A stretch of DNA of 31,846 nucleotides from a virus. The DNA lies in the IMG/VR virus record IMGVR_UViG_3300005527_000191, positions 1-31,846 of that record; one strand, written 5' to 3'. Numbering within the stretch: the stretch's first letter is position 1; every line of letters starts with the position of its first letter. Shown one piece after another: positions 9,509 through 27,858 of the stretch. A model generated the notes under the pieces. The model did not search any database. It saw only the letters and a program-made list of their open reading frames with translations, and was not told where the DNA came from. Position numbers and translations under genes: made by a program.

Positions 9509-10471
9509 ATGTTCGGTTTCTCTCCTTTCGCGACTACCGCCTTTGCGGACATTCTTGAGACCAATCGGGCCAACCAGAATGTAACTGGCGTTGAAGCTAC
9601 GTGCTCCCTTGGCTCTGTCACGGTCGCAGCCGAAGTTAATATCTCACTTACTGGCGTCGAAGCCACAGGAGACATCGGGCACGTTGATGCTCGGTCGATT
9701 GTTAGCGTATACCTAACTGGTGTCGAAGCTCTTGGTGAAGTCGGCACCGCTGCCGTATCTGCCGCTGCATCTACTGGCGTTACTGGCGTCGAAGCCACTG
9801 GCGAAACGGGCACAGCAAATGCCACAGGCACAGCCAATGTAATCCCCATAGGCGTTACAGCCTCAGGTGTAATCGGTACGGTTGCTACCAGCGCAGGCGC
9901 TGCGGTCTTCCCAACTGGGGTTCAAGCTGCGGGCGAAACAGGCACGGCGACTGTCGCGGCCTCTGGAAGTGTGGTTGTCACTGGCGTCGAAGCTATTGGC
10001 CAGACAGGCACGGTAAACGTCGCAGCGGGAGCCAACGCATTCGCTACAGGCGTAGAAGCCCTTGGCCAAACAGGCACGGCTGAAGTTTCAGGTAAAGCCT
10101 TTGTCTCCGTCACTGGCGTCAGCGCCACCGTTGATCTTGGCAGCGTCGTTGTCCGCATACCGAAAATCGTGCCTGTCACGGGTGTAGAGGCTTCTGGCGC
10201 TATCGGTAACGCCACCGTTATAGGTGGTTCCAAAGTTTATCTTGTTGGTGTACAAGGGGTAGGTAGAGTTACCACTCCGCTTGTCTGGGGCGTTATCAAT
10301 GACAACCAAGACGCGAACTGGCAACCGATTGATGATGCGCAAACTGGTAACTGGGCGACGGTAGATGATGCTCAAACACCAAGCTGGCAGACGATTGATG
10401 ATTCCCAAGCTGGGGATTGGGTACAAGTGGTAGACGGCAACACCGTTGTTTGGGTACAGATACCGACGTAA
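9509..10471 (+). CDS. Periodic-repeat virion protein (22-residue TGVEA units, then 11-residue Trp units)
   Basis: 320 residues, start 8 bases after a very strong purine-rich ribosome site (9491-9500). After 25 N-terminal residues come eleven units of exactly 22 residues, starting at 9584 and every 66 bases to 10244, with consensus TGVEAxGxxGTxxVxxxxxV; no insertion or deletion breaks the period. The end switches to a repeat with Trp every 11 residues (codons at 10286, 10319, 10352, 10385, 10418, 10451), each with a DDAQ-type turn. The 22-residue pattern alternates hydrophobic strands with Gly turns, so a β-solenoid or long β-structure is likely. It lies between the lysis genes and the second fibre; a tail spike, collar or fibre role is inferred. 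Confidence 0.8.
   Translation: MFGFSPFATTAFADILETNRANQNVTGVEATCSLGSVTVAAEVNISLTGVEATGDIGHVDARSIVSVYLTGVEALGEVGTAAVSAAASTGVTGVEATGETGTANATGTANVIPIGVTASGVIGTVATSAGAAVFPTGVQAAGETGTATVAASGSVVVTGVEAIGQTGTVNVAAGANAFATGVEALGQTGTAEVSGKAFVSVTGVSATVDLGSVVVRIPKIVPVTGVEASGAIGNATVIGGSKVYLVGVQGVGRVTTPLVWGVINDNQDANWQPIDDAQTGNWATVDDAQTPSWQTIDDSQAGDWVQVVDGNTVVWVQIPT
9584..10309 (+). repeat. Eleven tandem 66-bp units with perfect period
   Basis: Units start at 9584, 9650, 9716, 9782, 9848, 9914, 9980, 10046, 10112, 10178 and 10244. Most open with ACTGGCGT(C/T)GAAGC. Base-level divergence between units is moderate, yet length is invariant. Confidence 0.92.
10286..10453 (+). repeat. Six Trp-centred units of 33 bp
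   Basis: TGG codons recur every 33 bases from 10286 to 10451, with DDAQTGNW, DDAQTPSW and DDSQAGDW as the clearest units. The period is exactly half of the 66-bp repeat that precedes it in the same gene. Confidence 0.9.
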
Positions 10472-10480
10472 GGAACGAAG

Positions 10481-12544
10481 ATGGCAAGTACGTATAGCAA
10501 TCTCAAAATCCAATTAATGACCACGGGTGAGAACTCGACCACGTGGGGCGACGTCACAAACGTCAACTTAGGCACTGCCTTGGAAGAGGCCATTGTTGGT
10601 TCCGATGATGTCACTTTTGCCAGTGCCAACGTCACACTGACCCTATCCAATACCAACGCTTCGCAAACTGCTCGCAACATGCGGCTGCGCTGCACGGGTA
10701 CTACTGGTGGATCAACTCGCAACCTCGTGGTACCTGCGATTGAAAAACCGTATATCGTCCAGAACGACTGCGCGGATAGCATCGTAATTAAGACGTCGGC
10801 TGGCAACGGCATCACCGTCCCTGCTGGTAAGACCATGTGGGTCTATAACAACGGCACGGACGTAGTGGATGCAACCACTCACCTCACGTCACTTACGCTT
10901 GCCTCGGCCCTTCCTGTTCTCTCAGGCGGCACAGGCTCCAACACTGCTTCTGGTGCACGGACCAATCTCGGCCTCGGCACAATCGCCACGCAGAACTCAA
11001 ATGCCGTCACCATCACTGGTGGCTCAATCACAGGCATCACTGACCTTGCTGTTGCCGATGGCGGCACAGGCGCTTCGAACGCTGGGGACGCACGGACTAA
11101 CCTTGGTCTCGGCTCTCTTGCTGTTCTCTCGTCGATCAACAACTCCAACTGGTCTGGCACTGCTCTGGCTGTTGCTAATGGCGGCACAGGCGCAGTCGAT
11201 GCACCAACTGCTCGGACTAATCTTGGCGCTGGTACAGTAAACTCGGTGGCTGGTACTGGCACAGTAAATGGCCTAACCCTTACCGGCACGGTCACTACAT
11301 CTGGCTCACTTACTCTTGGTGGCGCGCTTTCCGGCGTCAGCCTGACTACGCAGGTCTCAGGTATATTGCCTGTCGCCAATGGCGGAACAAACGCTACAAC
11401 AGAGTCCGGTGCACGCACAAGTCTAGGTGCTACTACGGTTGGGGGTAACATGTTTACCCTGACCAATCCCGATGCGATTACTTTCCCACGTTTCAATGCA
11501 AACAACACGGTCTCTGCTTTGGATGCTGCGACTTTCCGGAGTGCAATCGGCGCGGGTACTAGCTCGACTACGGGTACAGTTACTTCGGTCGCTATGTCGG
11601 TCCCCGCGTTTCTTTCTATTTCGGGTTCACCGATCACAAGTTCTGGTACGCTTGCAGTCACCCTTTCCGGCACGGCACTCCCTGTCGCCAATGGCGGTAC
11701 TGGCGCAACCACCCTTACGGGTGTTCTAAAGGGTAATGGCACTTCGGCTTTTTCCGTTGCTACTGCGGGCACTGATTACGTCGCCCCCGGTGGCGCACTC
11801 GGCACACCTTCATCGGGTAACTTGGCGAACTGCACCTTCCCAACACTAAACCAAAATACCACTGGTAGCTCTGGTTCCTGCACCGGTAACTCGGCAACAG
11901 CTACGACTGCTACTACAGCTACTACAGCTACTACAGCTACTACGGCTGGGTCTGTTACCAACGCTGTAACTTTTAACACCTCGGGTGGTGCAGCCGCTGG
12001 CACGACGTTCAACGGGTCCGCAGCGCGTACGATTGATTACAGCACGGTGGGTGCTTACGCTGCTACTAACCCATCGGGCTTTACGTCAAACGTCGGTACG
12101 GTAGTTTCGGTAAGCGGTACCGGTACGGTTAACGGTATCACGCTCACCGGTACGGTTTCATCTTCGGGTAACCTAACTCTAGGCGGTACTCTTTCCGGTG
12201 TTAGCCTCACGACACAAGTGTCAGGTACGCTCCCGATTGGGAACGGTGGTACAGGCGGAACCACACAAGGCACTGCGCAGACTGCTCTCGATGTTCCTTC
12301 CCGTGCAGGTTCAGGTGCCAGCGGTACATGGGGTATAAGCATCAGCGGCAACGCAGCCACAGCTACTTCGGCTACCTCGGCTACAAACGCTACAAACGCG
12401 GCAAACCTCGTAGCGGCCAACTTCTCTATCGTAGAAAGCGGCGGCGTCCTGTACTTCAAATATGGGGCGACCAATATCGCTAAGTTGGAAAGCAACGGAG
12501 CGTTTACCGCACTCAATAACGTCACAGGATTTGGGAGCATCTAA
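10481..12544 (+). CDS. Second tail fibre protein with NGGTG/ARTNLGLG shaft repeats
   Basis: 687 residues. The N-terminus MASTYSNLKIQLMTTGE and TTWGDVTNVNLGTALEEAI is a familiar phage fibre attachment region, followed by a β-domain to about residue 140. The rest is a Gly/Thr/Ala shaft with repeated (A/G)NGGTGA and ARTNLG(L/A)G modules, TTQVSG(I/T)LP strands, and two low-complexity stretches (ATTATTATTATTAG near residue 475, ATATSATSATNATNAAN near 625). The C-terminal ~35 residues (VLYFKYGATNIAKLESNGAF) resemble a common fibre tip or trimerisation ending. There is no S74 chaperone. The shaft shares modules with the long fibre. AAGGAA lies shortly before the start, and the end overlaps the glycine-rich gene (TAATG). 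Confidence 0.87.
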   Translation: MASTYSNLKIQLMTTGENSTTWGDVTNVNLGTALEEAIVGSDDVTFASANVTLTLSNTNASQTARNMRLRCTGTTGGSTRNLVVPAIEKPYIVQNDCADSIVIKTSAGNGITVPAGKTMWVYNNGTDVVDATTHLTSLTLASALPVLSGGTGSNTASGARTNLGLGTIATQNSNAVTITGGSITGITDLAVADGGTGASNAGDARTNLGLGSLAVLSSINNSNWSGTALAVANGGTGAVDAPTARTNLGAGTVNSVAGTGTVNGLTLTGTVTTSGSLTLGGALSGVSLTTQVSGILPVANGGTNATTESGARTSLGATTVGGNMFTLTNPDAITFPRFNANNTVSALDAATFRSAIGAGTSSTTGTVTSVAMSVPAFLSISGSPITSSGTLAVTLSGTALPVANGGTGATTLTGVLKGNGTSAFSVATAGTDYVAPGGALGTPSSGNLANCTFPTLNQNTTGSSGSCTGNSATATTATTATTATTATTAGSVTNAVTFNTSGGAAAGTTFNGSAARTIDYSTVGAYAATNPSGFTSNVGTVVSVSGTGTVNGITLTGTVSSSGNLTLGGTLSGVSLTTQVSGTLPIGNGGTGGTTQGTAQTALDVPSRAGSGASGTWGISISGNAATATSATSATNATNAANLVAANFSIVESGGVLYFKYGATNIAKLESNGAFTALNNVTGFGSI
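11897..11946 (+). repeat. 9-bp microsatellite (ACTACAGCT) inside the second fibre gene
   Basis: About four near-perfect copies of ACTACAGCT, with slightly varied units at both ends, encode a run of Ala and Thr (ATTATTATTATTAG). The unit is a multiple of three, so slippage would change shaft length without breaking the frame. Confidence 0.85.
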
Positions 12545-13980: not shown

Positions 13981-15903
13981 ATGGCATTCATCAAGCTCCA
14001 ATTTAAGCCCGGTGTAAACCGCGACCAGACCGACTACTCCAACGAGGGCGGCTGGTACGAGTGTGACAAAATTCGGTTTCGCTCAGGTTATCCGGAGAAG
14101 ATTGGCGGCTGGGTAAAATCTACCCCGACTGCATTTGACGGCGTGTGCCGCCAGATGTGGAACTGGATCACGACGTTCAACGATAACCTACTGGCACTTG
14201 GGACTGACACCAAAGCCTATATCGAGAACGGTGGTTACTACTACGACATTACTCCGTTCGGTGAAGCGCTTGCTGGGTCTAACACTTTTGCGGTAACGAA
14301 CACCCTTGCTGTAGTCACAGTGACCACAACTGCTACACTCCCATCTTGGCTGGTGACAGGGGAACCCGTGCTTGTCGCTGGGTTCGTATCCGCTCTTGGT
14401 GGTATCCCCATCATCGAACTGAACGCAGTCCACATAATTACCAAGCTCGGGGCCAATAGCTTTAGTTTCACGGTAGCTACACCTGCCTCGTCTACTACCT
14501 CCGTCAGTGGCGCAGGCTACACCGTTAAGGCCGAGATTGAACCGGGCAATGCAATTACCACCGCTGGTCTTGGTTGGGGTGCAGGTGCTTGGGGGCGTGA
14601 TGCTTGGGGTCTGGGTAGCACCACAGGCGGTATCAACCTTCCGCAGCGCGACTGGTGGTTTGACAACTTCGACAACGATCTTGCAATGAATATCCGCAAC
14701 GGTGCACCTTACTGGTGGGTGCGTGGTACAACGGACGATCCGCAGACTTCGTTGGCTACCCATGCAATAACGCTCCAAACCTATGCCACTAACGAAGGGT
14801 ATACGGCTGCTTCCGTCCCTGTGCAGGTTATGCAGTTGCTGGTATCCCAGCAGGACAAACACTTAATTGCTTTTGGCGCGGTGCCGTTTGGCTCGACCAG
14901 CACGGCTGACTTTGACCCGCTTCTGATCCGCTGGGCTGACCAAGACACTCCGGGCGATTGGACGCCGTCAACAACCAATACGGCTGGTGACCTTCGCGTC
15001 TCTCGCGGTTCGCGTATCGTACGGGCACTACCTACTCGTCAGGAAATCTTGGTTTGGACTGACACCAACCTGTATACGCTCCAGTTCCTTGGCACGACTG
15101 ACGTATTTGGCTTGCAGGAATATGCGGACAACATCTCGATTGCTTCGTCACGTGCAGTGGCATCTGCGGCCAATATTACTTACTGGATGGGGCAGGACAA
15201 GTTCTATGCCTATACCGGTCGCGTCGAGACGCTACCCTGCACCCTGCGTAACCATGTGTTCAACAACATCAACTTCAACCAAGCAGATCAGATTATCTGC
15301 GGCACCAATGAGCAGTGGAACGAAATCTGGTGGTTCTATCCGACGGCTGATAGCGATCACAACAACGCTTATGTGGTTTATAACCATCTTGAGCGTATCT
15401 GGTATTACGGCACGATTGACCGTACGGCATGGCTTGACACGCCACTCCGCCAAAACCCACAGGGCGCGAACACTACAATTACTGTTGATGGCAGCACCGT
15501 CACGACTGGCGATGGCTTCCTTTACAACCACGAAGATGGTGTAAACGACGATGTGTTAGCGATGGACAGCTACATCCAGTCATCTGACTTTGACCTTGAT
15601 GACGGCGACAACTTTATGCTGACTCGGCGTATACTACCTGACGTTGGCTTTGATGGCTCGACCGCTGCATCTCCCGAAGTAACGCTGACTATTCGCCCAC
15701 GCAATTTCCCCGGCAGTGCGTTCCGTACGGATGCGGCTGATACTCAGCGCGTCATTGAGTCTCCGATTGGCGTCTATACCGATCAGGTCTTTGTCCGTGC
15801 CCGTGCCCGCCAGATGGCGCTTAAAGTGCGCTCGGAGAACCTCGGTGTTCAATGGCAACTTGGTGCACCACGCCTTGATGCACGACCAGATGGACGTCGC
15901 TAA
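13981..15903 (+). CDS. Tail nozzle / packaged-DNA stabilisation protein (P22 gp10- / T7 gp12-like)
   Basis: 640 residues, in the range of podovirus nozzle proteins. It opens with FKPGVNRDQTDYSNEGGWYE, then CDKIRFRSGYPEKIGGWVK, a strong family hallmark seen in phage stabilisation proteins. A β-propeller-like body follows, with repeated Trp/Gly strands (LGWGAGAWGRDAWG, RDWWFDNFDNDLAMNI, GRVETLPCTL, EIWWFYPTAD). The protein should form the hexameric tail nozzle that plugs DNA after packaging. The C-terminal ~100 residues (SPIGVYTDQVFVRARARQMA) form another β-domain. It is the clearest marker for a short-tailed phage here. Downstream start shares TAATG. Confidence 0.85.
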   Translation: MAFIKLQFKPGVNRDQTDYSNEGGWYECDKIRFRSGYPEKIGGWVKSTPTAFDGVCRQMWNWITTFNDNLLALGTDTKAYIENGGYYYDITPFGEALAGSNTFAVTNTLAVVTVTTTATLPSWLVTGEPVLVAGFVSALGGIPIIELNAVHIITKLGANSFSFTVATPASSTTSVSGAGYTVKAEIEPGNAITTAGLGWGAGAWGRDAWGLGSTTGGINLPQRDWWFDNFDNDLAMNIRNGAPYWWVRGTTDDPQTSLATHAITLQTYATNEGYTAASVPVQVMQLLVSQQDKHLIAFGAVPFGSTSTADFDPLLIRWADQDTPGDWTPSTTNTAGDLRVSRGSRIVRALPTRQEILVWTDTNLYTLQFLGTTDVFGLQEYADNISIASSRAVASAANITYWMGQDKFYAYTGRVETLPCTLRNHVFNNINFNQADQIICGTNEQWNEIWWFYPTADSDHNNAYVVYNHLERIWYYGTIDRTAWLDTPLRQNPQGANTTITVDGSTVTTGDGFLYNHEDGVNDDVLAMDSYIQSSDFDLDDGDNFMLTRRILPDVGFDGSTAASPEVTLTIRPRNFPGSAFRTDAADTQRVIESPIGVYTDQVFVRARARQMALKVRSENLGVQWQLGAPRLDARPDGRR

Positions 15904-16654: not shown

Positions 16655-18373
16655 ATGATGGACATGCAGGCTGCTCCGCCAACATACGCAGAAATGAACA
16701 CTGGGCAACCGCCGGTTGGTAACCCTCCTATGCTTGGGCAGCAGGTTCCGGGCATGACTGGTGGTCTGCCTTCGCAGGGTGGCTTGTCTGTTTTGGCTAA
16801 CCCAATGGCAGAACAACTCCGTAGCTTCGGTCGTGGCGACGACTCCATGCTTGTCCACATGACGCCGGGTGAAGTTAACAGCCTCCAAGGTCTGGCTATG
16901 GCTACGGGCGGTTCCCTCACCATCAACCCACAGACAGGTCTGCCCGAAGCTGGCTGGCTCGGTAAACTCCTCCCAACGATCCTTGGCGCAGCCTTAGCGG
17001 CTACTGGCGTCGGTGCCCCTCTTGCTGCTGGTATCGTAGGCGCAGGTCAGTTTGCACGCACCGGTAGTTTGAAGAAGGGTCTCATGGCTGGCCTCGGTGC
17101 ATTTGGTGGTGCTGGCATGGCTGGTATGGCGGGTCTTGGCGGTAAGATTTCTTCCAACGCACTCGGGATACTTGGTGATAAACCGGGTATGTTCGGTGCT
17201 AACATGGGTCTTGGTACTGCGACGAAAACAGCCGCACAACTTGCTGCGCCGACTGCCGTTACTGCTGACCCTCTCGCTAATGCACTACCCGTAACACCAA
17301 CAGTAAACGTCCCAGCATCTGGCATTGCCGGTGGTCCGGGAGCTACTACACTAAGTGCGCCAGCAGCGGCAGCGCCTACGGCGGTTAACCCTATGCAGGC
17401 GTATATAAACAATCCGTTAGGAGAGTTTTCAAAGCAGGCTAACGCCCTATGGGGTGGCACGCCTACAGGACCTATGGCTAAAGTAGGTGGCGGCGCTCAG
17501 TTCACAGGTGGTCTAGGTTCGCGTTTCGGCCAAGCGGTTCGCGCTGGTCTGCCCGGTGGCACTCCCGGTATCATTTCTAAAGCTGCGCCTATGATGGCTG
17601 CTTCCGGCGTTCTCCAAGGTGTCTCCGGTGCGATGACCCCATCTGGATACCAAACCGCATCTGGTATGATGGACAACTCCTACCAAGGACCGTACACGGC
17701 GCAGAAGCGTACACCGAGCTTCGCTAAGGACACCAGTGAAATCCTTGGTTCGTCCAAGGAGCGCCGTTACTTCGACATTGATATGCCCGAAGTTTACAAC
17801 ATGGAAGGTCAGATTGTGCAGCCGGGATCGTCCACTGCACGGGGTACGCCTATCCTCCAAAACTATTTGCTACCCACCAACAAGAAGACGCCTAAGGGTT
17901 CTCCGATGTATGGCCAGCGTTTCGTACCGTATATGGGCGGCGTTGATCCTTCTCAGGGTATGAGTGCTCCAAACCAAGGTATGTTTAATCCTGAGGAAGA
18001 TACTACCTACGCTCATGGTGGTGAAGTCGAACTGGCCGATGGAGCCTTTGTGCTTGATGCCCGCACGGTGTCTGAACTTGGTAATGGCAGCAGCAACGCG
18101 GGTCTTGAAGCTCTTCGTCGTATTGGTGGTAAGCCAATCCAAGGGCCGGGTGATGGGGTAAGTGATAGTATCCGTGCCCGCATAGGGCGTGACCAACCTG
18201 CGCGTGTTGCGCGTGACGAAGCTATTATACCTGCTGAAGCAGTACGTAAAATCGGTAAGGGCAACCCGAAGCGTGGCGCTGATAAACTATACGCGCTCAT
18301 GGATAAGGCTCACAAAGCCCGGAAGAAAGCCAAGCGCGGTCAAGATACTAAGGTACGTCGGGGTCTCGTATAA
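16655..18373 (+). CDS. Internal virion protein with glycine-zipper membrane-like segment
   Basis: 572 residues. The first ~95 residues are Pro/Met-rich with DSMLVHMTPGEVNSLQGLAM. Residues ~99-165 form a Gly/Ala-rich hydrophobic stretch (LLPTILGAALAATGVGAPLA, then AGIVGAGQFARTGSLKKGLM and GAFGGAGMAGMAGLGG), like the glycine zippers of phage pore or ejection proteins. The C-terminus has EVELADGAFVLDARTVSELG, a PGDGVSDSIRARIG motif, ARVARDEAIIPAEAVRKIG and a very basic end (KAHKARKKAKRG). I recall the latter motifs from many phage ejection-region proteins. A T7 gp14-like role, forming the outer-membrane part of the channel, is possible but inferred. Either ATG (16655 or 16658) could start it. 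Confidence 0.75.
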   Translation: MMDMQAAPPTYAEMNTGQPPVGNPPMLGQQVPGMTGGLPSQGGLSVLANPMAEQLRSFGRGDDSMLVHMTPGEVNSLQGLAMATGGSLTINPQTGLPEAGWLGKLLPTILGAALAATGVGAPLAAGIVGAGQFARTGSLKKGLMAGLGAFGGAGMAGMAGLGGKISSNALGILGDKPGMFGANMGLGTATKTAAQLAAPTAVTADPLANALPVTPTVNVPASGIAGGPGATTLSAPAAAAPTAVNPMQAYINNPLGEFSKQANALWGGTPTGPMAKVGGGAQFTGGLGSRFGQAVRAGLPGGTPGIISKAAPMMAASGVLQGVSGAMTPSGYQTASGMMDNSYQGPYTAQKRTPSFAKDTSEILGSSKERRYFDIDMPEVYNMEGQIVQPGSSTARGTPILQNYLLPTNKKTPKGSPMYGQRFVPYMGGVDPSQGMSAPNQGMFNPEEDTTYAHGGEVELADGAFVLDARTVSELGNGSSNAGLEALRRIGGKPIQGPGDGVSDSIRARIGRDQPARVARDEAIIPAEAVRKIGKGNPKRGADKLYALMDKAHKARKKAKRGQDTKVRRGLV

Positions 18374-18813
18374 TGGAAGTAAGTCTGGTTCCTCCTGAGT
18401 TGGTTGAAGGGCTTTGGCCCCGCATCTTCCCCTACCTGAGCAGTGCTTCGGAATATACTTTTGGGCGCTACGAACCAGAGGATATCATTGAGTTTGTGCT
18501 TAACGGTCAGGCGCATCTTTGGGTTGTGCTTGACGAAGATGAGATTAAGGGTGTGACGATCACCCGCTTCTGGCAGTACCCACGTAAGAATTGCCTTGAT
18601 CTGGTCTTTCTTGCCGGTGACGATGGGTTTAGTTGGAAAGACGAAATGCTGTCCACGTTGCAAAACTGGGCACGTGATAGCGGATGTGATGTTATTGAAG
18701 CATCGGGCAGGCTTGGGCTTGCACGTGCTTTTAAAGATGACGGATATCGTGTATTGTGGCAAGTGTTTGAATTACCCGTAGCTGAAGCGGGCTTTGGAGG
18801 TCAGAATGGCTAA
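18373..18813 (+). CDS. GNAT-fold protein of the internal virion gene cluster (T7 gp13-like position)
   Basis: 146 residues, close to the size of T7 gp13 (138, from memory). The pattern is that of a GNAT fold: VPPELVEGLWPRIFPYLS helices, HLWVVLDEDEIKGVTI strands, NCLDLVFLAGDD, then helix LSTLQNWARDSGCDVIEASG and FKDDGYRVLWQVFELPV. The acetyl-CoA pyrophosphate loop (Q/RxxGxG/A) is not seen, so catalysis is doubtful and a structural or packaging role is more likely. It starts at TAATG and its end overlaps the next gene by 8 bases. The protein substrate, if any, is unknown. Confidence 0.78.
   Translation: MEVSLVPPELVEGLWPRIFPYLSSASEYTFGRYEPEDIIEFVLNGQAHLWVVLDEDEIKGVTITRFWQYPRKNCLDLVFLAGDDGFSWKDEMLSTLQNWARDSGCDVIEASGRLGLARAFKDDGYRVLWQVFELPVAEAGFGGQNG
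18796..18800 (+). promoter_or_regulatory. GGAGG ribosome site deciding the ATG at 18806
   Basis: GGAGG is 5 bases before ATG 18806, inside the end of the GNAT gene. It favours this start over an upstream in-frame TTG at 18794, which would place GGAGG inside the coding frame. Confidence 0.7.
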
Positions 18814-21112
18814 GGGTGGCAGCAGCAATCAACCAGTCAAGCAAGAGGTAACCCAGTCTAACCTCCCCGAATACGCACGTCCCTATTTTGAAGGGCTGAT
18901 GCAGCGTGCGGGTACCGAACTGACCAAGGGTTACACCCCCTACGAACAAGAGCGCATCGCTGGGTTTACGCCGGAACAGCAACAGGTCCAGCAGAATATC
19001 CTGAACCAACAGACGCCGGGTCAGTTCGGCACCGCTTCAACTCTCGCTACAGCCGCTGGCCTTGGTTCGCTTCAGGCGGGTCAATACGCTACGGGTCAGT
19101 TCGGCGCGCAGCAGATCGGGATGCCCAACCTCCAGCAATACAGCATGAGTGGGCCGCAGCAGGTCCAAGCAGGCCAGTATAACACACCCCAGATGGGCAC
19201 TGCCCAGACTGGGTTCCAGCCAAACCTTAACTATTTCCAGATGGGTGGAGCGCGTGACGTTGCCTCGCGTAATGTCCGTTCCCAAAATATGCAGGGTGCT
19301 CAGACCGGCTACCAACCCAATCTACAGCAGTACGAGATGGGTGGAGCGCGTGACGTTGGTGCACAGGGCGTATCGGCACAGGACATGCAGGCTGCGCAGA
19401 GCGGCTATCGTCCAGACCTTGAAGCATTCCAGATGGGACCTGCTGAGCGTGTTGGTGGTTATGATGTAAATGCCCCCATGATGCAGGCTGCGCAGACAAG
19501 CTACGGCCAAGGTCCGCTTGAGCAGTTCCGCATGGAAGGGCCGCAGGCTTTTGGTTTAGAGCAAGCGCAGCGTTATATGTCGCCATTTGCGGAAGCCGTA
19601 ATGGAGCCGCAGAAGCGCGAAGCTATCCGTAGCGCGAAGCAAGCGCAGCTTGTCCAAGACCTCGGCGCATCGCGTCAGGGCACCTATGGCGGGTCTCGCC
19701 AGCTTCTTGCTGGTTTGGAGCGCGAACGTAACCTCGGCCAACAGCTTGGTGATATTGATGCTCGTGGTCGGCAGGCGGCGTATGAAAGTGCGCAGCAGCA
19801 GTTCGAGCGTGACCGCGCAGCGGGTATGACCACAGGTCAGCAGAACCTCCAAGCTGCACTCCAGCAGCAACAGTTGGGTGTCAGCACCGGCTTACAAGCA
19901 TCCTTGGCTAATCTGTCCAACGAGCAGCAAGCCAACGTCAACAATCAGGCTATGCAGTTCCAAGCACAGGGTATGTCTGCGGATAACGCCATGAAGGCGG
20001 CACTGGCCAACCAGCAGGCTGGCCTCACCACAGGCCAACAGAACCTCGCTGCTCGGCTTGGTGTGCAAGAACTGGGTACGCAGCAGAACCTCCAAGTGGC
20101 GATGCAGAACCTGTCGAACGAGCAGCAGTCGCGGGTCAACAACCAAGCGCAGCAGTTCCAAGCTCAGGGTATGAATGCTGATAACGCACTACGCGCAGCA
20201 CTTGCTAACCAAGGTGTGGATGTCACACGGGGTACGCAGAACCTCCAGTCGCAGCTTCAAACGCAGCAGCTTGGTGCGCAGACTGGTACGCAGCTTGCAC
20301 TGGCTAACCTGTCGAACGAGCAGCAGGCACGTGTAAATAATCAAGCTCAGCAGTTCCAAGCGCAAGGTATGAACGCAGACAACGCGCTCAAGGCGGCGCT
20401 GGCCAATCAGGGTGTAGACGTCACTCGCGGACAGGCAAACCTCCAAGCTGCGCTCGGTGTCCAGCAACTTGGTACCCAGACGGGTATGCAGACGGCGCTT
20501 GCTAACCTTGACTCCGCTTCGCAGGCGAATGTCCAGAACTTGGCAGCCCAGCTTCAAACGCAGGGACTTAACGCTGAACAGGCGATGCGCGCAGCATTGG
20601 CCAACCAGCAAGCGCAGCTTACGACGGGCCAGCAGAACTTGCAGGCTGCGCTTCAAACGCAGCAGCTTGGTGCACAGACCGGACTTGAAGCCCTCCGGGC
20701 TAACCAGCAGGCGGACCTTGAGCGTCAGCGCATGCGGGAGCAGTCGCGTCAGTTTGGGTCGCAGCAGGGTCTTGCGGGTCTATCTCAAGCAGGCCAGATG
20801 GCTCAGACGTTGTCAAATATCGGTACAGGTCAGTCACAGGCAGATCAGGCACGCTTCGGCTTGCAGACTTCCACTGCGGCGCAACAGCAGGCGCTTCAAC
20901 AGCAGTACCTCGACATGGCGTACCAAGATTTCTTACGTCAGCGCGACTATCCGATGGAGCAGTTGCAGCAGTACAGCAGCTTGCTACGCGGCGTTCCGGT
21001 CACGCCGAACTCGACGACCTCGACCTACGCTCAACAGCCGGGTATCGGGCAGCAGCTTCTTGGCACGGGTCTCGGCGCGGCCAGCCTTTATAATATGTAC
21101 AAAGGGGGTTGA
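18806..21112 (+). CDS. Gln-rich tandem-repeat virion protein, probable ejection component
   Basis: 768 residues from MAKGGSSNQPVKQEV. Order: an N-terminal region with YEQERIAGFTPEQQQVQQNI (to ~100), five 32-33 residue units with (Q/E)MGGARDV (residues ~114-250), a conserved block YMSPFAEAVMEPQKREAIRS and LGASRQGTYGGSRQLLAGLE (~255-310), four full 66-residue units plus a partial fifth from residue 342, and a C-terminal YLDMAYQDFLRQRDYPMEQL followed by a short Gly-rich end. The conserved block is familiar from aquatic phage structural proteins. The 66-residue units should form long helices. Its place between the GNAT and transglycosylase genes suggests a T7 gp14/gp15-like internal protein, but no homology to those is visible. 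Confidence 0.8.
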   Translation: MAKGGSSNQPVKQEVTQSNLPEYARPYFEGLMQRAGTELTKGYTPYEQERIAGFTPEQQQVQQNILNQQTPGQFGTASTLATAAGLGSLQAGQYATGQFGAQQIGMPNLQQYSMSGPQQVQAGQYNTPQMGTAQTGFQPNLNYFQMGGARDVASRNVRSQNMQGAQTGYQPNLQQYEMGGARDVGAQGVSAQDMQAAQSGYRPDLEAFQMGPAERVGGYDVNAPMMQAAQTSYGQGPLEQFRMEGPQAFGLEQAQRYMSPFAEAVMEPQKREAIRSAKQAQLVQDLGASRQGTYGGSRQLLAGLERERNLGQQLGDIDARGRQAAYESAQQQFERDRAAGMTTGQQNLQAALQQQQLGVSTGLQASLANLSNEQQANVNNQAMQFQAQGMSADNAMKAALANQQAGLTTGQQNLAARLGVQELGTQQNLQVAMQNLSNEQQSRVNNQAQQFQAQGMNADNALRAALANQGVDVTRGTQNLQSQLQTQQLGAQTGTQLALANLSNEQQARVNNQAQQFQAQGMNADNALKAALANQGVDVTRGQANLQAALGVQQLGTQTGMQTALANLDSASQANVQNLAAQLQTQGLNAEQAMRAALANQQAQLTTGQQNLQAALQTQQLGAQTGLEALRANQQADLERQRMREQSRQFGSQQGLAGLSQAGQMAQTLSNIGTGQSQADQARFGLQTSTAAQQQALQQQYLDMAYQDFLRQRDYPMEQLQQYSSLLRGVPVTPNSTTSTYAQQPGIGQQLLGTGLGAASLYNMYKGG
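19145..19570 (+). repeat. Five 96-bp tandem units in the Gln-rich protein
   Basis: Anchor ATG codons at 19145, 19241, 19337, 19433 and 19532 give 32-residue units (33 for the fourth). ATGGGTGGAGCGCGTGACGT is identical at 19241 and 19337. Units carry an AQTG(Y/F)QPNL-type linker and an (N)MQAAQ helix. Confidence 0.88.
19829..20752 (+). repeat. 198-bp tandem repeat: four full units and a partial fifth
   Basis: Units begin at 19829, 20027, 20225, 20423 and 20621, exactly 198 bases (66 residues) apart. Each reads T(T/R)GQxNLQAxLxxQQLGxQT, then LANLSNEQQARVNNQAQQFQ, then AQGMNADNALRAALANQ. Three similar 22-residue thirds are visible within each unit, i.e. six 11-residue steps. Confidence 0.92.
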
Positions 21113-21118
21113 TAACTA

Positions 21119-22774
21119 ATGGAGACCAAACCTTACAACCTCCAGTCCCCTGAGCAGATTGCCAAGGATTACGGTGGTAACAAGCAGAAGATCGCTGAAG
21201 CCATGCAGATGGGGATCGTTGACCCTACGGCTGGCACGATGGCGGGTATGTTTATTGACCGTATGCGGTCGGCTGCGCAAACGGAACAAGCTCCACAACA
21301 GACGGTAGCCCAACAAGTATTTGCTCCTCCGGCCCCTGTCGCGCCGGGTATGGGTGCTATACCACAGGGAGGTATGCAGCCTCCCGCTCCTGCTCCAGCG
21401 GGTCTCGGCGCTACACCAGAAGCTGCCATGATGGCCGAGCAGATGCCTGCCCCTGCACCAGAAATGCCTCCGCAGGAAATGCCCCCACAAGAAATGCCTA
21501 TGATGGCTGAAGGCGGTATGGTTCCTCCATATATGTCTGGTAGTGGGATTTCTGATCTTCCGCTTCCTGACGATATGTTTGATGAAAGTCGCAATGGTGG
21601 GTTTAACGACGGCTACGCAGGTGGTGGTATCGTTGCACTTGCTCGTGGCGGTGGCCCCCTTACCGATGAAGAGGCATGGAGCCGTATCAAACGCCTCGAA
21701 GGTGGTCTTGGCCCCAAGGGTGAAATGCGCGTAAGCTCCGCAGGTGCTGTTGGTCCTGCACAACTGATGCCCGCTACTGCGCCAGAAGCAGCAAAACTTG
21801 CCGGTCTTCCATGGGATGAGAAGCGCTACCGCACCGATGCTGCCTACAATGAGGCGTTGGGTAAGGCTTACTATTTATCCCGTGTTAATGCCCGTGGAGG
21901 TGACTATAACAAAGCTGCGCTCGATTACCACACAGGTATGGGCAACGTAGACAAGGGTAAGATTGGTCCAGCAGGTCGTGAATATCTGCGTAAGTTTAGC
22001 GGGGCGGAAATACCAAGCCGTGATATCAATACCCCTGAGGGACAGGTTGCATCCGTCGAGGATATCTTCGGCAGGCTACAAGAGCGTTTTGGCCCTTCTG
22101 CGGAAGAACGCGCAGCGCGTGAAAAGTTGACGGCTCGTGCTGAAGAACTGACTTCGGACGAATATCAGAACAAGCTACGCAAGGAATCCCTGTGGGAGAC
22201 GCTGGCGGCCATTGGGTTTAACATGGCAAGTTCCAAGTCACCTTCGCTGCTTCAAGCAGTGGGTGAGGCTGCCGCCGCTGCGCTTCCCGGTGCTTCTGCG
22301 GACAAGAAAGAACGCAAGGCGCTTAAGGATCGTGGGCTTGAGCTTATGGTTGAACTGGGTGCTAAGGATCGCAAGGAAGCTATTCCACTCTGGAACATGG
22401 CTACCGAAGCGGCCAAGACAAATATGTCGCAGCAACAGTTTACTAAAAAGCTGGAACTCGATGAACGCCAAGTTGCTGTGGCTGAGAAAAACCTCAACGA
22501 ACAAATTCGCCAAGCTAACCTCACCAAACCTGAAGACATCAACGATACGGTCACACGATACTTGTTGGTGTATCCTCCGGGTTCGCCACAACATGAAGCG
22601 GCTAAGCGGGTATACGCAGCAAGAAATCCTTCTTCTACGACCAATACGGTAGACCCGAAGGCAATCGTGGAAGCGGGACGTCAGGGTGCGAGCGGTTTCT
22701 CCGAAGGCCAAACAGCCAAGGACACAAAAGGTCGTACGATTGTATTTCAGGGTGGTCAGTGGGTCTACCCTTAA
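21119..22774 (+). CDS. Virion lytic transglycosylase (SLT domain) with Pro/Met-rich linker
   Basis: 551 residues. Residues 1-50 (PEQIAKDYGGNKQKIAEAMQ, then TAGTMAGMFIDRMR) are a conserved phage domain. Residues ~60-185 are a Pro/Met/Gly linker with PAPEMPPQEMPPQEMP and a GGGIVALARGGG motif. Residues ~185-300 form an SLT-type lysozyme fold: probable catalytic E194 in RLEGGLG, SSAGAVGPAQLMPATAPEA, and DYHTGMGNV in the place of the usual AYNxGxG. The C-terminal half is helical and charged. It would open peptidoglycan locally during DNA entry. It sits between the repeat protein and the giant protein; in T7 the equivalent activity is the N-terminus of gp16, whereas here it is a separate gene. Confidence 0.85.
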   Translation: METKPYNLQSPEQIAKDYGGNKQKIAEAMQMGIVDPTAGTMAGMFIDRMRSAAQTEQAPQQTVAQQVFAPPAPVAPGMGAIPQGGMQPPAPAPAGLGATPEAAMMAEQMPAPAPEMPPQEMPPQEMPMMAEGGMVPPYMSGSGISDLPLPDDMFDESRNGGFNDGYAGGGIVALARGGGPLTDEEAWSRIKRLEGGLGPKGEMRVSSAGAVGPAQLMPATAPEAAKLAGLPWDEKRYRTDAAYNEALGKAYYLSRVNARGGDYNKAALDYHTGMGNVDKGKIGPAGREYLRKFSGAEIPSRDINTPEGQVASVEDIFGRLQERFGPSAEERAAREKLTARAEELTSDEYQNKLRKESLWETLAAIGFNMASSKSPSLLQAVGEAAAAALPGASADKKERKALKDRGLELMVELGAKDRKEAIPLWNMATEAAKTNMSQQQFTKKLELDERQVAVAEKNLNEQIRQANLTKPEDINDTVTRYLLVYPPGSPQHEAAKRVYAARNPSSTTNTVDPKAIVEAGRQGASGFSEGQTAKDTKGRTIVFQGGQWVYP

Positions 22775-22789
22775 GCTAGGAAGGTATCC

Positions 22790-25700
22790 ATGCCCACTCC
22801 CGTACCAGCCAATCTCCTTCCCCAAGGTCTCCGGGCGGCTCCAGCCGCCCCTAAAGCCGTACCTGCCGATATGCTACCAGAAGGGCTTCGCCCCCAAAAG
22901 GAAGCCGCTGGTTTCTTTGGCTCCTTGATGGAGGGTGCCCAAACCCTTGGGATTACTGACGAAGCTGCGGCGTTTGCCGCTGATCCAAGCGAGAAGAACC
23001 GTCGTGCGCTTATCAAGGCTGGCGAGTCTAAGTTTCGCCAAGTAGGTTTTGGTGAGGGTGAGAACTGGGAAGCATTTAAGCAGTTGCTCGGCGGCTCAAT
23101 CGGCCAGCTTGCGGCTCCTGTTGCCGCAGGTGTCGGTGCTTCGTTCGTATCTACTCCTATTGGCGGTCTTGCCGCTGCGAGCACGGTTTCGGGTGCCCAG
23201 TATACGTCCCAGAACCTTCTGCGTCAGGCGCAGGCACAGGAAGCGGCCATAGCAGCGGGTAAGAAGCCTGAGGATACGTCGGTAGGTAAAGCTATCTTGG
23301 CAGCTACCGGACAGACCGCGCTTGATGTGGCTGGTGGTAAAGTCTTTACAGGTATCGCCAAAGCCTTCCCGTTTATGCGTCCGTTGCTAGGTCAAGCTGG
23401 CGGCAAAGCTACACAGGAAGCCGGAGAAGTTCTGGCTGATGCAGCGGCGAACGGTACCATTAAGTTTACCAAGGGTGTCGCCACAGGTGTTGGTAAGGGT
23501 GTTGCCTTCGAAGTACCACAGGAAGTTGCTCAACAAGGACTTGAGCGTTGGCAGGCAGGTTTATCTCTGACAGATGATGAAGCCCAAGGTGAATATGGCC
23601 AAGCAGCCCTTGGCGCGCTCTTATTGGGTGGTGGCTTCGGTGGTGTCTCGGGTGCGCTATCTACACGTAGTGAAAGGGCGGAGGCAAAAGCTGCCCAAGC
23701 TGACGCAGAAGCTGAGACTGAGGGAGAAGCAACACTACCAGAAATCCTCCCGACAACGGGCATAAAGCGCGAAGATATACGGGCGCAGTTGTCCGAAGCC
23801 GCTGGCCCTGAACTATCTCGGAGCGCAAATGCAGCGGTAAAAGCCCTTGAGTCCACGGTATCTAATGCCCTTGCTACTGGGCGTCCGGAAGACATTGAGG
23901 CTGCGCGTTCGTTTATTGCTGCGCGAGAAGATAAGCTTGATGCGGGCCTGTACGAAGACGATGCGCTGGTAAATGCACTCCGACGCCCAGCCTTTGACGA
24001 GGCAGGGCAGCCCGCTATGTCGCCAGAAGGTATGCCAGTCTATGAAGGTGCCTTGGCGCAAGCCAAGCGGATGCTGGATGAAGTAGCACCGGTTGAAGAA
24101 GTAGCACCGGTTGAAGAAGTAGCACCGGTTGAAGAAGTAGCACCGGTTGCAGAAGTGGCACCGGTAGCAGCCGCCCCAGACCTTACTTCCGTGTACGAAG
24201 CACCCAACATGGAAGCGCGCAAAGCAGCAGCGCTGGATGTAGCTACGTCCATTGTGGAGTCGCTGCCGGGTATTGAGGCGACGAGCATATCTAAGAAGGT
24301 ATACAACCAGATTTCCACCCAGATCGCACAGCAAGCAGCGCGGGGCGAGACCTTTGATCCTGTAACGGTGGCACGGGCGACATTGGCAAAGAATGGTGTT
24401 GAGGTCCTTGAAACCGCAGCCGTACCCGAAGTTAATGTTTCAGCCGCGCCTGAATTGACTACACCTGAATTTACACCTCAGTCATACGTTGATCGCTACA
24501 TGGCGGGTGAAGGTCGGGGTACATCCACGGCTGACCTAGAGATGCAGCAATATGCTGCCAACAACGCCCCAGAGATCGAAGCAGAATTTAATCGGCGTAC
24601 CCAGCAGGAGACCCCAGATGCAGGAACTGGAAGACCTACAACATCTATCGACGAAGGAGTTGGAATTAGCGTTCCGCCTAGTGGAGAACCCGAGACTATC
24701 AGTGTCGCTCCCAGCGGGGTTAGCGGAATTGAACCGGGAACAGTGGGAGTCGGTGGGGTACCTCCTGTTCCTCCTCCGGTCGGCCCAAATGCGGAGCCGA
24801 GTCCACTAACACCGGAACCTACCCCAGAGCCTACGCTTGAGCCGCAGAGGACTCCCCTCAACCTTGTCCCTAATTGGTTGGCTAGAACGCGGCGGAAGCT
24901 TGCTGACAGCTTCGAAGGTTCCAAGGCGCTTGACACTTGGATGCAGTCCAGCCTTGGTTATGAGACGCTTCCTGAAGAGTTTCAGACTGCGGCTAAGTTA
25001 GAAACACTACAAACCCAGCAGGCTGGTAAATCACGTAACCTCCAGCGGGATTTTTTCGACCCGATCATAGAGATGACAGGGAAACTTGGCGTCGATCTTG
25101 GCGACCTTGGTATGTACCTATGGGCACGCAGCGCTCCGGATCGCAACCGGGATGTGGCTGAAACCAACCCTGAAAACTTCCCCGAAGGCGGCTCAGGTCT
25201 CACAACGGCGCAGGCCAGCGAAATTCTCGCCAAGTTCAAGGAAGAAGGTAAGCTCGCCAAGCTCAACCAAGTCGCACGTAAAGCCGATGCCCTTGTGGAT
25301 TTTACGTTGGCTGAGCGCGTCAAGGCTGGGAAAATGTCGCAGGCGCAGGCTGATGCCATGCGTGCCAAGCAGAAATATTACATGCCGCTCAAGGGCTTCG
25401 CCAAGGATGGCGATATGCTCACGTCAGACCTAGAGGGCGATACCGAGATCGAGAGCCGCCAAGCAGAGGCTATGCGTGCGTTGCGCGCTGCGGCCCCCGG
25501 TGGGACTGTGAATGAAATCCGCCAAGCCTTTGGTCGTGGCTCGATGCCGTTCCACCCGCTCTTTAATCTGTTCCAAGATGCAGAAGCGACGGTACGTAGC
25601 AACGTCGAGAACCAAGCCATGCGCCCGATTATTCGCGCATGGAAAAAAGACCCCAGCATGTTTGAGGGCATTCTCAATGTCTACACCAAAACCAACCCCA

Positions 25701-27592
25701 AGCGGGTGATGGTGAGCAACGACACGCCCGGTGGGCGCTGGGAACCTATCGACATGGAGAAGGCGTACCGGAACAGCCCGCCCGGTACTTATACACTCAT
25801 CAAAGACAATGGGGCCAATTACTACGTTGAGTTTGCGGAGCAGGGTGCAGGCGCGGACCTCAAACGCATGTTTGCCAATATGCGTCCGGAGCAGATGAAA
25901 GGTGCGCTCAAAACGCTCGCCACCATTAATAACTTCATGAAGGGAATGCTGACGTACAAGAACCCCTTGTATCTGATGTTTGTGGCCCCGTTCCGCGATA
26001 CGTCGGCTGCGATTGCGACAGCCATGCACCACCAGAACCTCAAGGGTAGCCGTGCCTTTGGTAAAAATCTGGCGGCTCGGACGTTCATGTACAGCCTACC
26101 CTTCTCCGGCACAGGTTCCGCGATTGGCCGCTATGTGTTCGGTAAAGCCCCGCTTGACGACGCAACGAGCAAGCAGTTGCAGGAGATGATCGACGCTGGT
26201 GGTGCACCGCTCCAAACGCGCTTCTTGAACGTCGAGGAGAGCGCCAGTGTGGCCTCACGTGCCATCCGGGCTATGAAAGGGCTAGAGAACCTGTCTGCCA
26301 AGGAACGTCCGGCCAAGCTCTGGGAAGGGCTGAACCAGTGGGTTGACGGTCTGGCCGACATCATGGACATGAACGCACGCTTCGCCACTTATCGTGCGGC
26401 TAGGGATTACGGCATCGAGCCTGCGGACGCAGCGCGCCTTGCTCTGGACTCGTCACTGAACCTTACACGTCGTGGTGAGATGGCACGCGGCCTCGACCTC
26501 ATCTTCCCGTTCTTCGGCGCTGGCGTTGAGAGTACCCGTAAAACCTTGCGTATCGCTTCGAACCCCAGAGCACTTACTAAGGTGTTCGGTGGGATGATTG
26601 CTGTCGGTGTGATGGAGTCAATCTGGAACGCGATGCAGGCCGGTGATGCCGATGATGACGGGCAAGAGGACCATCTCGACCAAGACCTTGGTGCGGGCCT
26701 GCGCGCAAGCCGCTTCATCATCTATTACGGTGACGGCCCGGATGACTACATCAAGGTGCCAATCGACCCGATGCTAGGTTACTTCAAGTTCGTTGGTAAC
26801 AAGATTGGCGACGTGATGGCTGGGGCCATAGCGCCTTCTGAAGCAACCACAGGGCTTGTGTCCGGCTTTACCAGCCTTATGCTGCCCACGCGTATCCCCG
26901 GCACAGATGTCCAGTCCGTTGGGATTGCGATGACGCCGCTGGTTGGTAAGCCCTTCATGGAAAACATCATCAACCGGAACTTCTTCGGGTCGCCCATCTA
27001 CAAGGAGCGTACGTTTGACAGCGCACCGCGCTCTGAGCTTGGGCGTGAAACCACAGGGGACTTCTGGAAGGGCTTGGCTAAGACGCTTAACTCAGTAACT
27101 GGCGGCTCCGCAGCAGTCAGCGGGGGTATGGACTTCCAGCCTGAGGTGTATCGCCACTTTATCGAGAGCTATTTCGGTGGGCCTTACCAGCTTGCCAAGC
27201 AGATGGTTGGTATCAAAGAAGCCGAGGGTATGGCTGACATCCCCGGCATCAAGAGCTTCGTGGGTACAGGGTCTGAGTACGCGCCACAAACCAAATATTA
27301 TGAGAACTCCAGTAATGTCCGGCAGATTATGAACCGTCTCAGCAAGCTAACGCCAGAGCAGCAGATGGCCCAAGGCGCTGAGTTTTACATGGACACCGAC
27401 CCGCGCATTATGGACGCGTACAAGGCTGTTGAAGCCAATCTCGACCGGATCAACAAAGAGCAGAAGGCATCCATGGCTTTGGCCAAGACGGATGAGGACG
27501 AGAAAGTCGTACTGGATTACTACCGTGGCCAGAAGAACGAGTACTACGCAGCGTTCAACTCGGTCTATAACGGGGTGAAGAAGGAACAATAA
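22790..27592 (+). CDS. Giant internal virion / polyvalent protein with LPD38-like C-terminal region
   Basis: 1600 residues. Two short motifs VPANLLPQGLR and VPADMLPEGLR open it (residues 5-15 and 24-34). Gly/Ala-rich hydrophobic stretches near 100-140 and 271-291 could insert in membranes. An acidic Ala/Val/Glu linker with five VAPVEE-type units follows (~432-461), then a Pro/Thr-rich region to ~690. From ~700 on, a large helical domain starts (LGYETLPEEFQTAAKLETLQ). LNLTRRGEMARGLDLIFPFF and GAGVESTRKTLRIA near 1222-1255, with ADDDGQEDHLDQDLG following, resemble the LPD38 domain of phage polyvalent proteins. It is likely injected with the DNA, like T7 gp16 in position. Stop overlaps the opposite terminator T-tract. 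Confidence 0.85.
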   Translation: MPTPVPANLLPQGLRAAPAAPKAVPADMLPEGLRPQKEAAGFFGSLMEGAQTLGITDEAAAFAADPSEKNRRALIKAGESKFRQVGFGEGENWEAFKQLLGGSIGQLAAPVAAGVGASFVSTPIGGLAAASTVSGAQYTSQNLLRQAQAQEAAIAAGKKPEDTSVGKAILAATGQTALDVAGGKVFTGIAKAFPFMRPLLGQAGGKATQEAGEVLADAAANGTIKFTKGVATGVGKGVAFEVPQEVAQQGLERWQAGLSLTDDEAQGEYGQAALGALLLGGGFGGVSGALSTRSERAEAKAAQADAEAETEGEATLPEILPTTGIKREDIRAQLSEAAGPELSRSANAAVKALESTVSNALATGRPEDIEAARSFIAAREDKLDAGLYEDDALVNALRRPAFDEAGQPAMSPEGMPVYEGALAQAKRMLDEVAPVEEVAPVEEVAPVEEVAPVAEVAPVAAAPDLTSVYEAPNMEARKAAALDVATSIVESLPGIEATSISKKVYNQISTQIAQQAARGETFDPVTVARATLAKNGVEVLETAAVPEVNVSAAPELTTPEFTPQSYVDRYMAGEGRGTSTADLEMQQYAANNAPEIEAEFNRRTQQETPDAGTGRPTTSIDEGVGISVPPSGEPETISVAPSGVSGIEPGTVGVGGVPPVPPPVGPNAEPSPLTPEPTPEPTLEPQRTPLNLVPNWLARTRRKLADSFEGSKALDTWMQSSLGYETLPEEFQTAAKLETLQTQQAGKSRNLQRDFFDPIIEMTGKLGVDLGDLGMYLWARSAPDRNRDVAETNPENFPEGGSGLTTAQASEILAKFKEEGKLAKLNQVARKADALVDFTLAERVKAGKMSQAQADAMRAKQKYYMPLKGFAKDGDMLTSDLEGDTEIESRQAEAMRALRAAAPGGTVNEIRQAFGRGSMPFHPLFNLFQDAEATVRSNVENQAMRPIIRAWKKDPSMFEGILNVYTKTNPKRVMVSNDTPGGRWEPIDMEKAYRNSPPGTYTLIKDNGANYYVEFAEQGAGADLKRMFANMRPEQMKGALKTLATINNFMKGMLTYKNPLYLMFVAPFRDTSAAIATAMHHQNLKGSRAFGKNLAARTFMYSLPFSGTGSAIGRYVFGKAPLDDATSKQLQEMIDAGGAPLQTRFLNVEESASVASRAIRAMKGLENLSAKERPAKLWEGLNQWVDGLADIMDMNARFATYRAARDYGIEPADAARLALDSSLNLTRRGEMARGLDLIFPFFGAGVESTRKTLRIASNPRALTKVFGGMIAVGVMESIWNAMQAGDADDDGQEDHLDQDLGAGLRASRFIIYYGDGPDDYIKVPIDPMLGYFKFVGNKIGDVMAGAIAPSEATTGLVSGFTSLMLPTRIPGTDVQSVGIAMTPLVGKPFMENIINRNFFGSPIYKERTFDSAPRSELGRETTGDFWKGLAKTLNSVTGGSAAVSGGMDFQPEVYRHFIESYFGGPYQLAKQMVGIKEAEGMADIPGIKSFVGTGSEYAPQTKYYENSSNVRQIMNRLSKLTPEQQMAQGAEFYMDTDPRIMDAYKAVEANLDRINKEQKASMALAKTDEDEKVVLDYYRGQKNEYYAAFNSVYNGVKKEQ
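24083..24172 (+). repeat. Five 18-bp VAPVEE tandem units in the giant protein
   Basis: Units at 24083, 24101 and 24119 are identical (GTAGCACCGGTTGAAGAA); 24137 and 24155 are variants encoding VAPVAE and VAPVAA. In frame, so changes in copy number would only lengthen an acidic linker. Confidence 0.9.
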
Positions 27593-27663: not shown

Positions 27664-27858
27664 TCACATCCGCCAGACGCGTAAACCCCTAATTCCCTCT
27701 TCGATGACCTCTTTCGTCAATACCTTGACTCTCAGGCGCTCGGTGACCACCATTAGTTGTGCTTTGGCGCGATCTGAATCCAAGCACGGGAAGAAGACGG
27801 AGGTCCCTTTTTTGAACCCCCGCCAGTTAATTTCATAGGTTACGCCCTCAATCAGCAT
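27664..27858 (-). CDS. Small conserved basic phage protein, 64 residues
   Basis: Reads MLIEGVTYEINWRGFKKGTS, then VFFPCLDSDRAKAQLMVV, TERLRVKVLTKEVIEEGI and RGLRVWRM. It overlaps the end of the primase-helicase gene by 11 bases and is the last gene before the terminator. The compact mix of strands and basic helices, with a GTSFF/VFxPCLD-type core, is familiar from aquatic podoviruses as a short protein downstream of replication genes; its function is not known to me. Nucleic-acid binding is a reasonable guess from its many Arg and Lys residues. Confidence 0.72.
   Translation of the reverse strand: MLIEGVTYEINWRGFKKGTSVFFPCLDSDRAKAQLMVVTERLRVKVLTKEVIEEGIRGLRVWRM

Follow-up and report, generated by a model that had tools for sequence, protein, structure and literature searches.

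What is a viral protein with two unlike blocks of tandem repeats built for, and what sets the length of each block? The question is raised by a 768-aa protein encoded in a virus record of 31.8 kb, the whole of which is referred to here as the window. An earlier note had proposed that this is an ejection protein, an identity supported by both family membership and genomic setting. In a profile search, the protein matches PHROG 4287, 'DNA ejection protein' (E 5.6e-7), through residues 640-760, in the region of its C-terminal domain, and short relatives match the same profile almost end to end (profile positions 8-314 of 392). The genes that define the setting are as follows.

13981..15903, plus strand: P22 gp10-like tail stabilization protein, upstream of the ejection gene
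18373..18813, plus strand: GNAT-like protein, upstream of the ejection gene (weak match)
18806..21112, plus strand: 768-aa ejection protein, ATG start, PHROG 4287 family
21119..22774, plus strand: SLT transglycosylase-domain protein, next downstream (domain match)
22790..27592, plus strand: 1600-aa protein with LPD38, kin to large proteins of Vibrio, Burkholderia, and Stx phages

The start of the ejection gene overlaps the GNAT-like gene by 8 bases, and the same synteny of GNAT-like and ejection genes occurs in Roseobacter phage CRP-902. The P22 gp10-like tail gene places the virus with P22-type podophages. With adjacent genes for an SLT protein and for a protein of >1000 aa, and with a P22-type tail module in the same record, the 768-aa gene looks, from gene content and order, like part of the ejection operon of such a podophage. 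Within this operon, the SLT-domain product is probably a second ejection protein and the 1600-aa LPD38 protein probably a gp16-like one. That the window protein is present in virions is suggested, but not proved, by gp27 of Sinorhizobium phage phiM5, a distant and weakly similar homologue whose annotation records its detection in the proteome of the particle.

The protein divides into five parts.

18806..19084, plus strand: N-terminal base region, residues 1-93, with LPEYARPYF and TPGQFG conserved in the alignment
19085..19555, plus strand: N-block, residues 94-250 (boundaries approximate), non-helical, with 32-aa units that each consist of 16-residue halves
19556..19801, plus strand: middle domain, residues 251-332, with the loop RQGTYGGSR (~19673-19699) between two predicted helices
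19802..20737, plus strand: C-block, residues 333-644, hendecad helix, 66-aa units of 6 x 11 residues
20738..21112, plus strand: C-terminal domain, residues 645-768, starting at EQSRQFG, ~124 aa and constant in relatives

The N-terminal base region is also of near-constant length among relatives, and the middle, measured from YMSP to FERD, is 76 residues long (75-77) in nearly all of them. The repeats noted earlier are confirmed, and their interpretation is partly supported. Its tandem-repeat protein at 18806-21112 corresponds to an exact open reading frame (ATG, 768 aa), and the self-identity of residues 345-650 reaches 60% at a lag of 66 residues and 58% at 132, against an all-lag mean of 13%. 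The C-block holds four full 66-aa units (residues ~342-605) and one partial unit, whereas TRF detects just 2.0 copies, at 20108-20508. As to the inner structure of the unit, read earlier as 66 = 3x22 = 6x11, identity is raised at multiples of 11 (26% at lags 33 and 99, 20% at 22, 18% at 11), so the base step of 11 residues is right; the three similar thirds of 22 residues were rejected, because halves of 33 residues are more alike (26% versus 20%). The hendecad helix proposed on this basis gains support from hydrophobicity, which peaks at a period of 3.67 residues (11/3) with a power of 18.1, compared with a maximum of 8.7 in 300 shuffles. The 11-residue step and this period are found in the window protein and in divergent relatives alike. 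Across 52 relatives, every 11th C-block residue is Asn (72%) or Gly (19%), the position five residues further on is mostly Leu, Met, or Phe, and the composition of the block is polar, rich in Q/N/T/G. The upstream block of 32-residue units was likewise recognized correctly (41% identity at lag 32 in residues 130-262, versus 8% background).

Counting units in relatives, a check that the same note had recommended, revealed that their number differs widely, and with it a feature that the note did not contain and that is the main finding as well as the new and strong part of this analysis: the lengths of the 32-aa and 66-aa repeat blocks are coupled. Relatives were drawn from IMG/VR and GTDB genomes, and block lengths were measured between conserved anchors, from the TPGQF proline to YMSP for the N-block (LN) and from FERD to EQSRQFG for the C-block (LC). 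The first 28 distinct proteins, counted with a slightly different N anchor, had matched LN/LC values only (r = 0.99995). A fit to 55 proteins gave LN = 0.4857*LC + 34.0 (sd 0.54); it omitted the outlier L103, and the anchors of L087, L091, L098, and L099, plainly wrong when placed automatically, were re-measured by hand. This relation was then confronted with a hold-out set in which anchors were located solely by profile HMMs. Here, 42 of 43 further proteins fell within 3 residues of the predicted length (median error 0.6). The set covers 30 distinct values of LC, which range from 10 to 465 (26 to 465 excluding the single misfit) and mostly differ from 48 plus a multiple of 11. The set was not fully clean, since L105 was already among the 55 fitted points and L138, a 955-aa near-copy, was also included; without these two, 40 of 41 proteins remain within 3 residues. 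All 95 distinct relatives together, leaving out L071/L103 and L218, follow LN = 0.487 x LC + 33.7 (slope 0.4874 +- 0.0009, sd 0.82) over an LC range of 26-465 residues, with a maximum error of 2.6 and no quadratic term. The rule survives differing repeat sequences (L098, L105) and LC values not divisible by 11. It is broken by two proteins only, each with a surplus of N-block and never a shortfall. In L071/L103, ~76 aa of Gly-rich sequence are inserted; in L218, the surplus amounts to ~120 aa and is rich in Pro and Arg. The genes on either side do not follow LC in length (r = 0.11, -0.12, and 0.23). No earlier description of such length coupling was found in a literature search of limited extent.

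Seemingly fused to a long C-terminal extension are the ejection proteins of L197/L199 (1042 aa) and L188 (1141 aa). The extension of L197 resembles the product of the next gene, and the N-terminal part of these proteins obeys the length rule.

The coupling is not due to shared ancestry. On trees built solely from the conserved parts of the protein, at least 28 changes of LC are required among 55 sequences and at least 61 among 97, and independent contrasts retain the relation almost unchanged (slope 2.054, r = 0.9999); of the 75 that are not zero, 74 share one direction. Repeat misassembly would break a law of this kind, not produce it. The MinM2 sister group has a similar slope, and its line is offset by about +6 (LC 11 with LN 45; LC 98 with LN 88). 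Two cultured phages of a distant outgroup, Roseobacter phage CRP-902 (gp34) and phiM5 (gp27), lie off the line on weak anchors; for CRP-902 gp34 (L224:2876-4318), LN so measured is 97 versus 82 predicted. In this protein, the C-repeat (RQARFGAEDVMRGQFMED) is 18 residues long and the N-repeat 12. The phiM5 homologue (L231:2983-4389) and L228:2977-4215 seem to end in an endosialidase-chaperone (peptidase S74-like) domain, and the tailspike/chaperone annotation of these homologues is probably a mis-annotation of an ejection protein. Searches of phage records by tblastn gave no match for the long proteins, probably because of low-complexity filtering, and the shorter homologues did better. A whole-genome scan of bacteria (GTDB) returned two relatives only, both on MAG contigs.

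Matched insertions also bear on the direction and register of the two blocks. Among protein pairs whose two blocks are each at least 72% identical in nucleotide sequence, the best single-gap site was located in each block, and eight author-chosen pairs, each standing for a separate event and a disjoint path on the tree, were compared. Measured from the middle domain, the N gap (x 2.06) lies as far out as the C gap, which corresponds to an antiparallel register (r = 0.99, offset 18.6 +- 7.4 residues; permutation p = 0.0002 to 0.003 for two measures). A parallel register was rejected (r = -0.03 in the same pairs). Over all 43 pairs with at least 72% identity, the offset spans 3 to 81 residues, and amino-acid scans of more divergent pairs give noisier gap positions, several of them discordant. 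When L041 is compared with L114, one extra hendecad near the outer end of the C-block has its counterpart in 6 additional residues near the outer end of the N-block.

The slope of the law has a geometric reading. Given a C-block alpha helix at 1.5 A per residue, the N-block would rise 3.08 A per residue, a value close to that of polyproline-II or of a slightly twisted strand. The expected N-block period is 11 x 0.487 = 5.36 residues and half of that, and the observed hydrophobic periods agree (5.35 and 2.67); the 32-residue repeat of the first set permits discrete N-block periods only, and the divergent hold-out set gives 5.28 and 2.67. The N-block is likely a stretched strand.

Covariation of N- and C-block lengths within about one residue suggests a hairpin rod, and that this podophage ejection protein is built as such a length-locked rod is the reading we favor, with moderate confidence. 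A strand running along a helix is its likely structural core. The N-block would be an almost fully stretched, polyproline-II-like strand lying antiparallel on a C-block helix, its own or that of a neighbor. The middle helix-loop-helix would form the tip of the rod and both termini its base, so that each added 66-aa unit would make the rod ~10 nm longer with base and tip still in register. The figure of ~10 nm per unit had been put forward earlier. Its arithmetic is sound (66 x 1.5 A = 9.9 nm), but it presupposes a straight helix, and AlphaFold2 breaks the helix near QGMN in models of low confidence (pLDDT 48 and 50 for the window protein and a 468-aa relative). If straight, the 312 residues of the window C-block would measure 47 nm. 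A rod of this length, longer still in relatives, exceeds the typical Gram-negative periplasm, which counts against the model.

The AlphaFold2 prediction returned a C-block that is helical, as expected, but broken in each unit into helices of ~28, 16, and 11 residues (local pLDDT up to 85). It placed middle-domain helices at residues 251-290 and 296-368 with a loop between them (pLDDT mostly ~57-68) and gave the N-block no regular structure (pLDDT ~30). Neither of these low-confidence models shows how strand and helix pack. As AlphaFold2 is too unsure here, the hairpin rod is drawn from lengths, register, and periods. The broken helices would fit a solenoid, in which the 66-aa unit forms two or three short helices with a 32-aa unit packed on one of them; copy numbers would then match because each C-unit needs one N-unit, and in the window's class of proteins the units are indeed coupled 1:1. 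The relation is, however, linear in residues and not in units: C-block additions of 11, 33, 44, 66, and 99 residues go with N-block additions of 5-6, 16, 22, 32, and 48, and changes that are not multiples of 11 are matched as well. The N:C ratio is also identical for halves with and without the helix-break motif. We consider a solenoid unlikely.

A C:N ratio near 2 could, in principle, arise from helices alone if the C-block were a long helical hairpin, running down and up beside a single N-block helix, and ejection proteins do undergo strong conformational change (PMC8954989). The measured LC per LN is indeed close to this value, but at 2.052 over 95 proteins it lies many standard errors from 2.0. 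Moreover, Pro (~7%) and Gly (~12%) occupy regular positions in the N-block, for which no helix is predicted, the turn of the C-block would have to remain centered whatever the length, and the register puts matched insertions monotonically outward from the middle domain. All this makes an all-helical arrangement improbable. Equally improbable is the notion that both blocks span the same third object, such as a tube wall or a tail of given length, without touching each other. The need to keep base and tip aligned would then make their lengths match, and the law of total length would be accounted for equally well; yet this arrangement needs matching totals only, while matched units share height and the periods of the two blocks are commensurate (~5.3 and 11 residues). 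Finally, a lipid-coating protein whose 11-residue amphipathic repeats, which may resemble those of perilipin 4, lie on a membrane would suit the hendecad period and the polar Q/N/T/G-rich composition, but is very improbable, as with repeat number unimportant the exact coupling to the N-block is left unexplained.

How might a length-locked hairpin rod serve DNA ejection? The family name, the operon, hendecads like those of phiX174 H, and T7 precedents lend plausibility, by analogy, to the earlier suggestion of a tube for DNA passage. The ejectosome of T7 (gp14/gp15/gp16) and the ejection proteins of P22 (gp7/gp20/gp16) likely do the same job from the same operon position, before the SLT and very large proteins. 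In the ejected channel, T7 gp14 consists of two antiparallel helices with a short connecting loop (PMC11784390), which the predicted middle domain of the window protein may resemble. The gp15 tunnel of T7 is cemented by an extended tape belonging to gp16 (PMC8954989). This tape is on a separate protein, whereas the one proposed here would be in cis and length-matched. The H protein of phiX174 opens with three hendecads, and its lumen is lined mostly by N, Q, and R; it forms a 170 A decameric tube, mostly heptad, for which no length-coupled strand is reported (PMC7354561). H and the window C-block have a Gln/Asn-rich hendecad helix in common. The family profile has no sequence match among the chains of solved structures, and homology with phiX174 H is accordingly not indicated. 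Another close counterpart is MM2_23 (316 aa, PHROG 4287) of Synechococcus phage MinM2, which belongs to the same family by profile match. Minimal members of PHROG 4287 share the middle domain of the window protein (GGSR loop) and its C-terminal domain but are almost without repeat blocks, whereas in the window protein both blocks are expanded and length-coupled.

These likenesses allow a tentative proposal, which we regard as possible though less probable than the rod itself, of a self-gauging, extensible DNA conduit in which the stretched strand of each subunit is bonded along its own hendecad helix as a tape. Several copies would be ejected alongside the DNA and assemble, across the cell envelope, into a helical conduit or an extension of the tail that is rich in Gln and Asn; the strand would hold the helices in cis, as the T7 gp16 tape does on gp15, and repeat number would set the reach of the conduit. 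Were this correct, trans-envelope tubes of roughly 10 to over 60 nm could be altered only via both blocks together, and their reach would be tuned to host surface layers. Independently of that proposal, two unlike blocks of one protein keep to a linear law within <1 residue across >60 inferred changes, a degree of exactness unusual for co-variation inside a single molecule. From this law follow predictions about the geometry of an ejection protein (rise per residue, direction, and register) for which no solved relative was found, as well as a testable claim about how short-tailed podophages cross envelopes of differing thickness.

Other repeats and features occur elsewhere in the window. The 1600-aa protein contains an 18-bp tandem repeat (24080-24165; 4.8 copies, 97%) that codes for EVAPVE. 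A 33-bp repeat at 10316-10402 codes for WxxIDDAQTxx at the end of a 320-aa protein (9509-10471), the body of which also carries repeated TGVEA..G.. motifs. The adjacent tail-fibre-like open reading frame (10481-12544) includes 5.7 copies of the 9-bp repeat ACAGCTACT at 11897-11947. On the minus strand, 27848-30688 encodes a protein of 946 aa that contains DUF927 and probably marks where the replication module starts.
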